The notes beneath the pieces were generated by a model, which saw only the letters and a program-made list of their open reading frames with translations, was not told the DNA's origin and searched no databases. A stretch of DNA of 14,282 nt from positions 29,085 to 43,366 of the forward strand of contig VAXX01000100.1 of NCBI GenBank assembly GCA_005885115.1, given 5' to 3'. How positions within the stretch are numbered: the stretch's first letter is position 1; every line of letters begins with the position of its first letter. Of the stretch, positions 3,815-8,805 are shown one piece after another. Position numbers and translations under genes: made by a program. The DNA is from Actinomycetota bacterium. GTDB taxonomy: Bacteria; Actinomycetota; Actinomycetes; Mycobacteriales; Micromonosporaceae.

Positions 3815-3844
3815 CATAATACCGGCAGGTCGCGCAACGTCAGG
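3815..3844. promoter_or_regulatory. Divergent promoter region between ABC ATPase and argF
   Basis: The 94-base gap between the two divergent starts holds the most AT-rich short stretch nearby, CCATAATACC. On the plus strand CATAAT (3815-3820) is one base from TATAAT and lies 34 bases before the argF ATG. On the minus strand TATTAT (3821-3816) is also one base off, with CTGACG (3843-3838) 16 bases upstream as a weak -35, and is 55 bases before the ATPase ATG. Strong Shine-Dalgarno AGGAGG (3842-3847) serves argF. Confidence 0.35.
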
Positions 3845-3854
3845 AGGGCATGTC

Positions 3855-4829
3855 ATGGCCGCCGGTACCCTCAAGGGCCGCAGTCTGTTGTCGCTGCAGG
3901 AGTTCTCCGCCGCGGAGATCACCCTGTTGCTGGACACGGCGGCGGAGCTCAAGCGGCTGCGCCGGGTGGGGGTGCATCCCCGGCCGTTGGAGGGCCGCAA
4001 CGTGGCGCTCATCTTCCTCAAGCCCTCCAGCCGTACCCGGGTGTCCTTCGTGGTGGCCGCGACCGAGGCGGGCGCGCATCCGGAGATCTTCAACCGGGAC
4101 GACATCCGGTTCGGCATCAAGGAGTCGGTACGCGACATCGCCCGGGTGTTCGGGCGGGTCTTCGACGGCATCATGTTCCGCGGCTACGACCACGGCACCG
4201 TCGTGGAGTTGGCGAGGTACGCCGGGATCCCGGTGTGGAACGGACTGTGCGACAGCTACCACCCGACCCAGATACTCGCCGACCTGTTGACGATCCGGGA
4301 GACGTTCGGGACGTTGCAGGGGGTTCCGGTCACGTACGTCGGGGACGGGCACAACAACGTCACCCGTACCCTGGCCATCGCGGCCGCCAAGACCGGACTG
4401 GACCTGCGCATCCTGGCGCCCGAACCGCTCCAGCTCACCGAGGAGTTCCTCGCCCCGGTGCTGGCCGCCCGGGAGAACCCCGAGGGGCGCGTGGTGGTGA
4501 CCGACAAGCCGGCCACCGCGCTGTCGGGTACCGCCGTCATCTACAGCGATGTCTGGGTATCCATGGGCGAGGAGGACAAGACGCAGGAGCGCATCGCGCT
4601 GCTGCGCGACTACAAGGTGACCGCCGACCTGCTCGCCCTCACCGGCCGCGCCGACACCATCTACCTGCACTGCCTGCCGGCGTTCCACGACCTGGACACC
4701 GAGTTCGCACGCGCGAACCCGGACGTCCGGGAGGTCGACGACGACGTCTTCGAGGGGCCGCGCAGCCGCGTCTTCGACCAGTCGGAGAACCGGATGCACA
4801 CCGCCAAGGCGTTGATGGCGCTCACCAGG
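3855..4829 (+). CDS. argF: Ornithine carbamoyltransferase (catabolic/ArcB-like), native stop lost
   Basis: It transfers the carbamoyl group of carbamoyl phosphate to ornithine, giving citrulline (arginine synthesis, or the reverse in the arginine deiminase route). ATG 3855 lies 7 bases after AGGAGG; the ATG at 3850 is in another frame. The 325 recognisable residues cover the whole family length. Carbamoyl-phosphate loop: SSRTR (58-62) in FLKPSSRTRVSF, where the usual context is F-E-K-x-S-T-R-T-R. Also present are HPTQ (136-139), the ornithine loop DVWVSMG (232-238), HCLP (272-275) and the C-terminal ENRMHTAKALMALT. SMGEEDKTQER and VYVGDG-like features resemble ArcB/enterobacterial enzymes more than the usual actinobacterial ArgF, so a second, catabolic copy is possible. 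The coordinates cover the homologous part only: no stop follows, and the frame continues to 5639 (594 codons in all) through a 45-bp foreign insert and then antisense of the flavodoxin gene. Confidence 0.9.
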
Positions 4830-4872
4830 CCCGCAGCCGACGTCGAGGGTCGCACCCCGGCACCGGGCCAGG
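4828..4872. repeat. 45-bp perfect direct repeat, copy 1 (junction between argF and flavodoxin gene)
   Basis: All 45 bases are identical and in the same orientation as 6637-6681, inside the methyltransferase gene. The flanks differ immediately on both sides. Here the copy has no native role: it joins the end of the argF coding sequence to the truncated end of the flavodoxin gene and encodes LARCRGATLDVGCG in the flavodoxin frame, a methyltransferase motif. Confidence 0.95.
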
Positions 4873-5477
4873 TGCAGCAGATTCCATGTCATGAACGTGG
4901 TGTTGCGGTTGGTGAAGTCGTTGTCCGGGCCGCCCGAGCCCGGGTCCAGGTACGACGGGCCGGGGCCGGCCTCCCCGATCCAGCCCGCGTCGGCCTGCGG
5001 CGGGACGGTGTACCCGAGGTGCTGCAGGCTGTAGAGCACGTTCATCGCGCAGTGCTTGACGCCGTCCTCGTTGCCGGTGATCAGGCAGCCGCCGACCCGC
5101 CCGTAGTACGCGTACTGACCGGCCGGGTTGAGCAGGTGCGAGCAGCCGTACAGCCGCTCGATCACCTGCTTGGTGACCGAGCTGTTGTCGCCCAACCAGA
5201 TCGGCCCGGCGATGACCAGGATGTCGGCCGGCAGCACCGAATCCCGGTAGATCGCCGGCCACTCGTCGCGCGCCCAGCCGTGTTCGGTCATGTCCGGCCA
5301 CACGCCGGTGGCGATGTCGTGGTCGACCGCCCGGAGCACCTCGACGGCGACCCCCTGCTTCTCCATGATGGACCGGCTCAGTTCGATGAGGCCGCCGGTG
5401 TGGGACAGCTCGGGGGAGCGCTTGAGGGTGCAGTTGATGAACAACGCGCGCAGGTCGTCGTACCGGGCGGTGGGCAA
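4863..5477 (-). CDS. Flavodoxin-family / NADPH-dependent FMN reductase-like protein, C-terminus lost
   Basis: TTG start at 5475-5477 with GGAGG 5 bases upstream, 20 bases after the stop of the preceding gene, so probably the second gene of an operon. The first 205 residues are family sequence. ALFINCTLKRSPELSHT (11-27) is the phosphate-binding loop after the first strand, where FMN binds. GPIWLGDNSSVTKQVIERLYG (91-111) is the second flavin loop. GGCLITGNEDG (129-139) precedes the last strand, and NTTFMTWNLLHLAR (192-205) begins the final helix. Homologues normally continue some tens of residues. Here the frame passes into LDVGCGPG from the 45-bp methyltransferase copy and then runs antisense to argF as far as 3840 without its own end. 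The listed coordinates give the native part. The protein may be non-functional, or the end may be an assembly error. Confidence 0.82.
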
Positions 5478-5497
5478 GGATACCTCCGAAAGGTGGG

Positions 5498-6115
5498 TCA
5501 GGCGGCGTGCTGCTGGCCTTCGATGAAGAACGCCAGCACGGTGTCGGGTCGGGCGTCGTCGAGGTCGCGCATCAGCCGGGCCGCGCCGAACGGGGCGTTC
5601 CAGAACGGGCCGCCGCGCGGGGTCGGTGGGGTCACGTAGGCGTACGGCTCGGGGAAGAAGTGGTCGCCGGGGCAGACCCCGAAGGTGGCCCCGCCGGTCG
5701 ACACCGCCACGTCGAAGTGCTCCGGCCACAGGATCGGTTGCTCGTCGGGGGCCAGTTGACGCAGCGCGGCGTCGCCGGCCGCCCAGCACCGCGCCAGCCA
5801 GCGGGCCGCGTCGGGGTCGGCGTCCAGCGGCTCGTCCGGCTTGACCCCGCAGCCGTCGTGGTAGAGCCCTTCCGGGGCACCGGCTTCGACGCCGACGGCG
5901 GCGGCGAGGTCGGCGGCGCTCCGGCCGGCCAGCGGTACCCGCCGGTCGCCGGCGACCAGGTAGAGCCCGTCGACCCGCAGGTCGGGCGCGGTCACGGTAC
6001 CGAACCCGCCGGGGCGTACGAACAGCCGGATCGTCCCGGAGCGGCGGTACTGCGGCCCGGCCATGACCAGCTCGGCGACGGCGTGCAGGGACCGGCGGGT
6101 GGCTTCGTCGTTCAT
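5498..6115 (-). CDS. Conserved actinobacterial protein of unknown function
   Basis: 205 residues from ATG 6113-6115, with GGGAGG about 7 bases upstream. I recognise the pattern of a conserved family in actinomycetes but know no assigned function. Features: RGTIRL-like RSGTIRLFVRPGGFGT near residues 25-40, a segment on DLRVDGLYLVAGDRRVPL, YHDGCG (~84-89), LWPEHFDVAVS (~129-139), a Gly-rich GGATFGVCPGDHFFPEPYAYV (~140-160), and C-terminal FWNAPFGAARL. There is no signal peptide and no membrane segment; it is probably a soluble cytoplasmic protein. It is likely co-transcribed with the flavodoxin gene downstream (20-base gap). The order may mean a redox-related context, but that is only a neighbourhood argument. 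Confidence 0.85.
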   Translation of the reverse strand: MNDEATRRSLHAVAELVMAGPQYRRSGTIRLFVRPGGFGTVTAPDLRVDGLYLVAGDRRVPLAGRSAADLAAAVGVEAGAPEGLYHDGCGVKPDEPLDADPDAARWLARCWAAGDAALRQLAPDEQPILWPEHFDVAVSTGGATFGVCPGDHFFPEPYAYVTPPTPRGGPFWNAPFGAARLMRDLDDARPDTVLAFFIEGQQHAA

Positions 6116-6188: not shown

Positions 6189-6839
6189 TCAGGGCGCGGA
6201 GAGTCGGGCGAACCATCGTCCGGCGTCGGCCCAGCGGTCCAGTACCCGCAGCCCGGCCTCGCGGGCGAGGGCGTCCAGGTCGTCGGCGGCGACCACGGCC
6301 CAGGCGAACGGTGGGCCGGTCCGCTCGCCGTGCCGCAGCGCGACCAGGCCGTGCCAGCTCCCGGTACCGGGCGGGTCGAGCTCCACGAGGAGGTCACCGT
6401 CCGGCGCGACCAGTTCCCGGCACCGGCGCAGCAGCCGGTACGGGTCGCCGCCGATGCCGATGTTGCCGTCGGCCAGCAGTACGTGCCGCCACGATCCTTC
6501 CCCGCGGACCGGGGAGAAGACGCAGCCGTGGTGGACCGGGGCGCCCCGGCGCCGGGCCTGACGGACGGCTTCGCCGCTGAGGTCAACACCGAGCGCCGTA
6601 CGCCCGACGGCGGCCAGCGCCGCGGTCAACCGGCCGGGCCCGCAGCCGACGTCGAGGGTCGCACCCCGGCACCGGGCCAGGATGGAGTGGTCGCCCGGGC
6701 GCAGCCCGCCGCACCAGTCGGCGGGCTCGATACGGCGGGGTGGCCGGGTGGCGGCCGGATCGACGAGCGCGACGTCGGCTGCTCCACCGGCGGCGGCGCG
6801 GCGCAGGACGGCGCCGTACAGGGCCAGGGCGCGGGTCAT
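6189..6839 (-). CDS. Class I SAM-dependent methyltransferase
   Basis: 216 residues from ATG 6837-6839. The start overlaps the stop of the glycosyltransferase by 4 bases (ATGA), so the two are translationally coupled. Motif I, LDVGCGPGR (62-70), is the glycine-rich SAM-binding loop. GVDLS (84-88) carries the acidic residue that holds the ribose. LLADGNIGIGGDP (121-133) and the ...APDGDLLVELDPPG strand (145-158) complete the Rossmann fold. The substrate is not evident; the family also includes enzymes acting on small molecules or glycans, and the coupled glycosyltransferase supports a role in the same pathway. Bases 6637-6681 (residues 54-67) are the source copy of the 45-bp repeat found at the argF/flavodoxin junction. 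The gene itself looks complete. Confidence 0.88.
   Translation of the reverse strand: MTRALALYGAVLRRAAAGGAADVALVDPAATRPPRRIEPADWCGGLRPGDHSILARCRGATLDVGCGPGRLTAALAAVGRTALGVDLSGEAVRQARRRGAPVHHGCVFSPVRGEGSWRHVLLADGNIGIGGDPYRLLRRCRELVAPDGDLLVELDPPGTGSWHGLVALRHGERTGPPFAWAVVAADDLDALAREAGLRVLDRWADAGRWFARLSAP
6637..6681. repeat. 45-bp perfect direct repeat, copy 2 (source, inside methyltransferase gene)
   Basis: Identical to 4828-4872. In this copy the sequence encodes the SAM-binding motif in its proper context, followed by RLTAALAAVG. This is therefore the ancestral copy and the one at 4828 is derived. Confidence 0.95.
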
Positions 6840-7672: not shown

Positions 7673-7702
7673 TACCGGTGCCGGGCCGGCCCGGCACCGG
7701 TA
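7673..7702. repeat. 30-bp perfect palindrome without spacer
   Basis: The half-site TACCGGTGCCGGGCC (7673-7687) is followed at once by its exact reverse complement (7688-7702), which ends 16 bases before the ATG of the 43-codon plus-strand ORF. It could be a two-fold operator for a dimeric regulator or a strong hairpin in RNA from either strand. There is no T-tract, so it is not a classical terminator. Confidence 0.75.
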
Positions 7703-7850: not shown

Positions 7851-8805
7851 GGCGCAGCGGCGCCGTCGCGAAGTCGGCGACGCCGGCGGCGAACCCGATG
7901 CGCGCCCGGAACCCGAGCACCCGCGCGGCCCGCTCGGGGGAGGCCACCACGTGCCGGACGTCCCCGGGGCGCGCCCCGCCCACGACGACCGGCTCCGGTC
8001 CGCCCATCGCCGCCGCGAGCGTGCACGCCAGGTCGCCGACGGTGTGCGGCTCACCGGAGCAGACATTCACGGCCGTAAACGAATCAGCCGGTACGTCCAA
8101 CGCCAGCAGGTTCGCCCGGGCCACGTCCTGTACGTGCACGAAGTCCCGCCGCTGCCACCCGTCCTCCATGACCCGCGGCGGGTCCCCGCGTTCCAGGGCC
8201 GACCGGAACAGCGAGGCCACCCCCGCGTACGGGGTGTCGCGCGGCATCCGCGGCCCGTACACGTTGTGGTACCGCAGCGCCCAGACACTGCCACCGGTCT
8301 GGCGGGCCCACGCGGAGGCGAGGTGCTCCTGGGCCAGCTTCGTCGGGCACGGCGGCTCGTACCGGCCGGCGTCCAGGTCGGCCGGCCGGCGCGGACCCGG
8401 GCCGACCAGCCCGTGTACGGCGCACGAATACCGCCCCTCGCCATACACCACCATCGAGCTGGCCAGCACCAGCCGGGACACCCCCGCCGTGTACATCGCC
8501 GACAGGAGAACGGCGGTGCCGAGGTCGTTGTGCCGGGCGTACGCCGGCGCGTCGGTCGGGTCGACGCCGTGCCCGACCATCGCGGCCTGATGGCACACCG
8601 CGTCCACCCCGACGAGCAGCCGGGCCAGCAGGGCGCCGTCGCCGACGTCCCCGACGACGACATCGCCGGCCCAGGACGGCGTTTCACCGCCGTGCGCCTG
8701 CGGCAGCAACGCGTCCAGCGCGGTCACCTCGTGCCCCGCGTCCCGCAACGCATCGACCACGTGCGATCCGATGAACCCGGCGCCGCCGGTGACGAGTACC
8801 CGCAT
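7822..8805 (-). CDS. NAD-dependent epimerase/dehydratase (extended SDR) with apparent internal deletion
   Basis: 327 residues from ATG 8803-8805 (MRVLVTGGAGFIGSHVVDAL), the usual start. VTGGAGFIGSH (5-15) is the NAD-binding GxxGxxG loop, and LASSMVVYGEG carries the active-site Ser. LRYHNVYGPRMPRDTPYAG, RDFVHVQDVARANLLAL and NVCSGEPHTVGDLA are typical of sugar-nucleotide epimerases. The catalytic YxxxK is missing: the sequence runs RYEPPCPTKLAQEHLASAW, with Lys preceded by P-C-P-T and no Tyr four residues before it. As I know the family, PPCP continues with a second Cys pair and a stretch ending in YAATKLAQEHL. About 25 residues including the catalytic Tyr therefore seem to be gone in frame. 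The protein may fold but should be catalytically dead, unless this is an assembly error. It may belong with the glycosyltransferase cluster downstream. Confidence 0.85.
   Translation of the reverse strand: MRVLVTGGAGFIGSHVVDALRDAGHEVTALDALLPQAHGGETPSWAGDVVVGDVGDGALLARLLVGVDAVCHQAAMVGHGVDPTDAPAYARHNDLGTAVLLSAMYTAGVSRLVLASSMVVYGEGRYSCAVHGLVGPGPRRPADLDAGRYEPPCPTKLAQEHLASAWARQTGGSVWALRYHNVYGPRMPRDTPYAGVASLFRSALERGDPPRVMEDGWQRRDFVHVQDVARANLLALDVPADSFTAVNVCSGEPHTVGDLACTLAAAMGGPEPVVVGGARPGDVRHVVASPERAARVLGFRARIGFAAGVADFATAPLRLTSSRTADG

Follow-up and report, generated by a model that had tools for sequence, protein, structure and literature searches.

Between two convergent genes, argF and a flavodoxin-family gene, we identified a junction at which both genes lack their ends and which holds a 45-bp exact copy of part of a methyltransferase gene 1.8 kb away. 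We interpret this junction as a deletion scar of mutagenic double-strand-break repair with a templated insert, a reading to which we give a probability of about 0.5. The window (the whole stretch of DNA that was analysed, 14,282 nucleotides) comprises bases 29085-43366 of scaffold C593 (43,366 bp). It comes from an assembly of 3.47 Mb in 607 contigs, with 77.7% completeness and 0.79% contamination. The scaffold has N gaps of 76, 11, 135 and 18 bp, and thus scaffolding was used; the 18-bp gap immediately precedes the window. A genome of the same genus (G001) served as the comparison reference for truncations and identities. The features at and around the junction are as follows.

3855..4827, + strand: argF (ornithine carbamoyltransferase; PF02729 and PF00185), without its last codon and stop
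4828..4872, no strand assigned: the 45-bp insert, identical to 6637-6681 and in the same orientation, with its final 9-10 bp also compatible with the flavodoxin gene
4863..4872, - strand: microhomology CCTGGCCCGG (flavodoxin sense), common to flavodoxin genes and the donor
4863..5477, - strand: flavodoxin-family gene, which by comparison with G001 lacks the stop and the 32 codons before it
6189..6836, - strand: SAM-dependent methyltransferase gene, full-length (Pfam Methyltransf_25/11), which holds the donor
6637..6681, no strand assigned: the donor copy within the methyltransferase gene, encoding the LARCRGATLDVGCGPG-type SAM motif region

The insert and its donor form an exact direct repeat on the same strand (4828-4872 and 6637-6681, with a spacing of 1,809 bp). 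This agrees with the earlier note, which had described a perfect 45-bp copy of the SAM-motif region bridging the end of argF and the cut end of the flavodoxin gene, with its source 1.8 kb off in the same orientation. No other exact repeat in the window is as long, the runner-up measuring 22 bp. Chance is ruled out as its origin, given that about 5e-16 exact pairs of at least 45 bp are expected from the base composition. A query of positions 4600-5100 against the whole assembly gave two hits, one being the window itself and the other the donor. Insertion of a mobile element is also ruled out, as the inserted 45 bp are a plain fragment of methyltransferase coding sequence. The net added sequence is about 35 bp once the 9-10 bp compatible with the flavodoxin gene are subtracted. 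The locus thus combines a deletion, seen in the truncation of both flanking genes by comparison, with a short insert of the genome's own DNA. The donor gene is full-length, which is compatible with templated copying, and its product shares 71% amino acid identity with that of G001 over residues 1-214.

The break in argF falls within the last codon. The window reads ...KALMALT-R and then stays open, whereas a database protein of 325 aa (P0004), identical to the window argF over residues 1-324, has Ile instead of Arg at residue 325 and ends ...KALMALTI. We conclude that P0004 follows the normal argF sequence because two more distant argF relatives, the DNA of which was read, end ...LTIAG followed by a stop. 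The evidence from P0004 consists of this one differing residue and the protein end at 325, judged from the protein alone, and its source mark in the table ('-') is the one also carried by proteins encoded in the window. P0004 belongs to a cluster of four sequences on four contigs, the longest of which (26,265 bp) differs in size from C593 and from each of its N-free pieces. The earlier note had named a normal argF end as a finding that would count against the junction, and such an end is found in part, in that P0004 continues normally past the breakpoint. This continuation speaks against the junction being universal.

The window argF shares 70-73% identity with its best matches in Streptomyces, Kitasatospora and Embleya, about 70% with plasmid copies of Streptomyces and Embleya, and 43% with its nearest homologue in G001. 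One of the three OTCase matches in this incomplete bin (the window argF) lies above the cut-off, as against two of four in G001. Judged from these sequences, the gene may have been acquired horizontally or may be an old paralogue.

The gene on the other side encodes a flavodoxin-like FMN reductase (PF03358, 28.3 bits against a cut-off of 24), with a TTG start at 5477 that is preceded by GGAGGT in the sequence. It shares 88% DNA identity with the gene of G001 as far as ...HLAR and diverges thereafter, so that 32 residues are missing (MLKDAGGVPAHGNQRSEWDAGCRFDFPNPDYR). The tail was not found elsewhere in the bin: the G001 tail and its downstream DNA matched only the window (E 1.7e-5), all other matches being at 0.0165 or weaker (40 of the 122 candidates were scored). 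Among the best 120 of 8000 proteins scored, there was no full-length flavodoxin of this strain (the best match was 91%), although clustering at 90% could mask one. Differences from G001 in 196 codons are 39 synonymous and 18 non-synonymous. Given these differences, and since both broken genes are open up to the break, any event would be recent.

An ancient, conserved argF-flavodoxin pair was considered and rejected, as both genes occur together in 0 of 109 relative loci at the cut-off used (97 loci with a flavodoxin match and 12 with an argF match, many merely 3 kb in length). In G001 the flavodoxin gene adjoins a GNAT-like gene (assigned by eye). A 7.2-kb stretch of the same genome (contig C6, L178, 7589-14767) holds homologues of the window genes at 953-1972 (oxidoreductase-like, by eye) and 5498-6115, one of them inverted. 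These two genes flank the junction on either side, and their shared neighbourhood in the window and G001 is suggestive only.

Neither gene meets a nearby stop across the junction. The argF frame is open to 5639 (about 594 aa), and the flavodoxin frame runs antisense through argF to 3840. The resulting GC-rich fused frames are open on both strands within 3840-5639 (about 594 aa on the + strand and about 546 aa on the - strand from 5480), and annotation could call them as genes. The fused ORF of the + strand was not found in the protein database, where its best match is 67%, and this counts against a real scar.

The two edges of the insert are unequal. At the argF edge, zero bases are common to argF and the donor (A at 4827 and G at 6636); were the Ile codon intact, its next base would be T. 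At the flavodoxin edge, the earlier note had reported that about ten bases (encoding L-A-R) fit both the gene and the source, and the comparisons bear this out with 9 bp against G001 and 10 bp in 17 of the 56 relatives in which the motif is present. In the remaining relatives the shared length is 9 bp (12/56), 8 bp (2/56) or 7 bp (1/56), or the core is different (24/56). The base for this count is the C-terminal motif found in 56 of 91 relative loci, and the intact end is that of relatives rather than of the strain itself. Among 400,000 random joins 0.2-5 kb apart on the same scaffold, the fraction that reaches 9 bp of shared sequence is 2.3e-4, and about 1e-4 reach 10 bp. In the flavodoxin sense, CCTGGCCCGG occurs at nine sites in the 43-kb scaffold, the junction included. 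Apart from the junction, the closest of these is the donor, and the next ones lie about 7.2 and 9.2 kb away.

We propose that a double-strand break would have led to loss of the argF stop, the intervening DNA and the 3' end of the flavodoxin gene. The flavodoxin 3' end (CCTGGCCCGG) could then anneal to its nearest match, in the methyltransferase gene 1.8 kb off, and be extended by about 35 nt on this template. The extended end would be released and joined to argF without homology, plausibly by Ku-LigD. The inequality of the edges (0 and 9-10 bp) suggests this order, with priming from the flavodoxin end, copying of about 35 nt and a blunt finish at argF. Genes for both components are present in the same bin, Ku (PF02735) on C368 and the LigD polymerase domain (TIGR02778, above the curated cut-off) on C230. 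We advance more tentatively, and with more doubt than belief, the specific proposal that this is natural bacterial synthesis-dependent end joining, in which a broken 3' end uses a 10-nt match 1.8 kb off as its priming site, copies about 35 nt and is joined bluntly.

The earlier note's proposal of end joining with template switching holds in part. An exact local copy, a full-length donor, microhomology at one edge, the choice of the nearest 10-mer site and published actinobacterial scars all favour it, and the normal argF continuation in P0004 stands against it. Template switching during replication in the cell (FoSTeS/MMBIR-like), in place of end joining, would also explain a local donor in the same orientation and one switch with microhomology. 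We regard it as unlikely, as the second switch is without microhomology, although the two routes are indistinguishable from sequence alone and the weight given to this one overlaps that of the repair scar.

An artefact of some kind, chimera or misjoin, falls just short of an even chance. Its simple form, a wrong gap closure in which an assembler links contig ends through a shared k-mer or gap filling, was also raised in the earlier note and is now weakened to the point of being very improbable. The N gaps of the scaffold fit it, but the sequence shared at the joins (0 and 9-10 bp) falls short of k, and usual k-mer or overlap thresholds exceed 9-10 bp. Unless contigs were abutted without N, both joins must already have existed in some read. 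Since edges of this length are too short for overlap walking, an artefact would need a chimeric molecule in the reads.

Such a molecule could have formed during library preparation or whole-genome amplification, by template switching in vitro followed by ligation, and have been accepted by the assembler, so that the junction was never in a cell. This is a serious contender, though we hold it to be somewhat less than an even bet. In its favour, and against a real scar, are the normally continuing argF of P0004, the fragmented draft assembly and the simultaneous loss of both ends, stops included, by two otherwise open genes without decay. A GC step at the junction (70.2% on one side and 74.6% on the other) also speaks against a real scar. 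A microhomology-primed switch to a nearby template is seen at one of the two edges. Passages of a study of multiple displacement amplification (MDA) describe chimeras whose 3' ends prime anew on short complementary sequences, usually less than 10 kb away, these sequences being of 2-21 nt in more than 70% of junctions (Lasken and Stockwell 2007, PMC1855051). The likeness to the present junction lies in this re-priming of a 3' end on a short match nearby. However, the chimeras in those passages are mostly inverted (more than 85%), and direct ones of less than 10 kb number just 11 of 475 (PMC1855051), whereas two direct switches within 45 bp would be involved here. The chimera would also require that two joins arose in a single molecule at a distance of 35-45 bp, or that two chimeric reads overlapped, and that the product outcompeted the true reads. 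There is no sign that the sample was amplified.

A survey of repeats in the assembly also argues against a chimera, as the 383 kb sampled contained neither another dispersed copy nor an inverted repeat with long arms, although chimeras that leave no duplicated sequence would escape this test. The survey covered 61 contig stretches, the scaffold included, with 414,525 bases of which 383,234 are readable (12 of the 61 pieces are all N). Nine exact direct repeats of at least 28 bp were identified. Eight are tandem, simple-sequence or have related flanks, which leaves the 45-bp copy as the only dispersed, sharply bounded one with unrelated flanks. Inverted hits are palindromes, apart from one pair that spans two contigs. 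We therefore reject frequent chimerism for this assembly as far as the sample and this test reach, one of nine repeats being dispersed between unrelated flanks. As the sole dispersed copy, the insert reflects neither a routine feature of the genome nor a routine fault of the assembly, within the sample.

Some other repeats were noted. Near the start of one contig (L200, G000:C195), positions 209-1134 form a perfect tandem duplication (a 464-bp exact match at an offset of 462 bp, or 154 codons) in a long, membrane-protein-like frame (by eye), which may be a fresh duplication or an assembly artefact. In another contig (L184, G000:C35), a 42-bp exact repeat occurs twice, offset by 57 bp (8514-8612). 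In the window, a perfect 30-bp palindrome at 7673-7702 (TACCGGTGCCGGGCCGGCCCGGCACCGGTA) lies 5' of a short ORF, as read from the sequence, and is a candidate terminator or operator.

If the junction is a repair scar, one counterpart in outcome is end joining by eukaryotic polymerase theta, which makes templated insertions by copying a nearby template from a microhomology and then joining. Polymerase theta is not known to us from bacteria, and another polymerase would be needed. A theta-like outcome in an actinobacterium would presumably arise via the LigD polymerase domain or a DinB-type polymerase. Among the matches listed in a literature search on templated insertions by polymerase theta, none is about bacterial repair, by titles and abstract openings.

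The scar would be of a known kind, already documented in an actinobacterium. Passages of a study of Streptomyces ambofaciens describe three KanS clones with inserts at the repair point, two from near the break (42 and 83 bp) and one from the TIR (30 bp) (PMC5869714). For breaks at a central site, they report that KanS clones fall from 82 to 1 in a kuA mutant and to 0 in ligCD (PMC5869714). For breaks in the chromosome arms, outcomes are much alike without kuA or ligCD, and one ligCD strain has an 18.8-kb insertion (PMC5869714). Thus, an insert alone does not prove the action of Ku-LigD. As far as these passages go, the likeness consists of a deletion and a short insert in a high-GC actinobacterium, with genes for Ku and the LigD polymerase domain in the present bin too. 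The scars of S. ambofaciens differ in that they followed induced breaks and were sequenced in clones. They show microhomologies of 1-6 nt in half of the cases (PMC5869714), whereas the present junction has 0 bp at the argF edge and 9-10 bp at the flavodoxin edge, is known from an assembly alone and has a normal argF counterpart elsewhere.

If the junction is an artefact, it illustrates that a single chimeric molecule is enough to remove the stops of two conserved genes from a public draft genome and to generate two long fused reading frames that are spurious. If it is real, it would be a natural and fresh case of a type of scar documented in induced-break experiments, and its unequal edges would suggest which end primed the copying and which was ligated.
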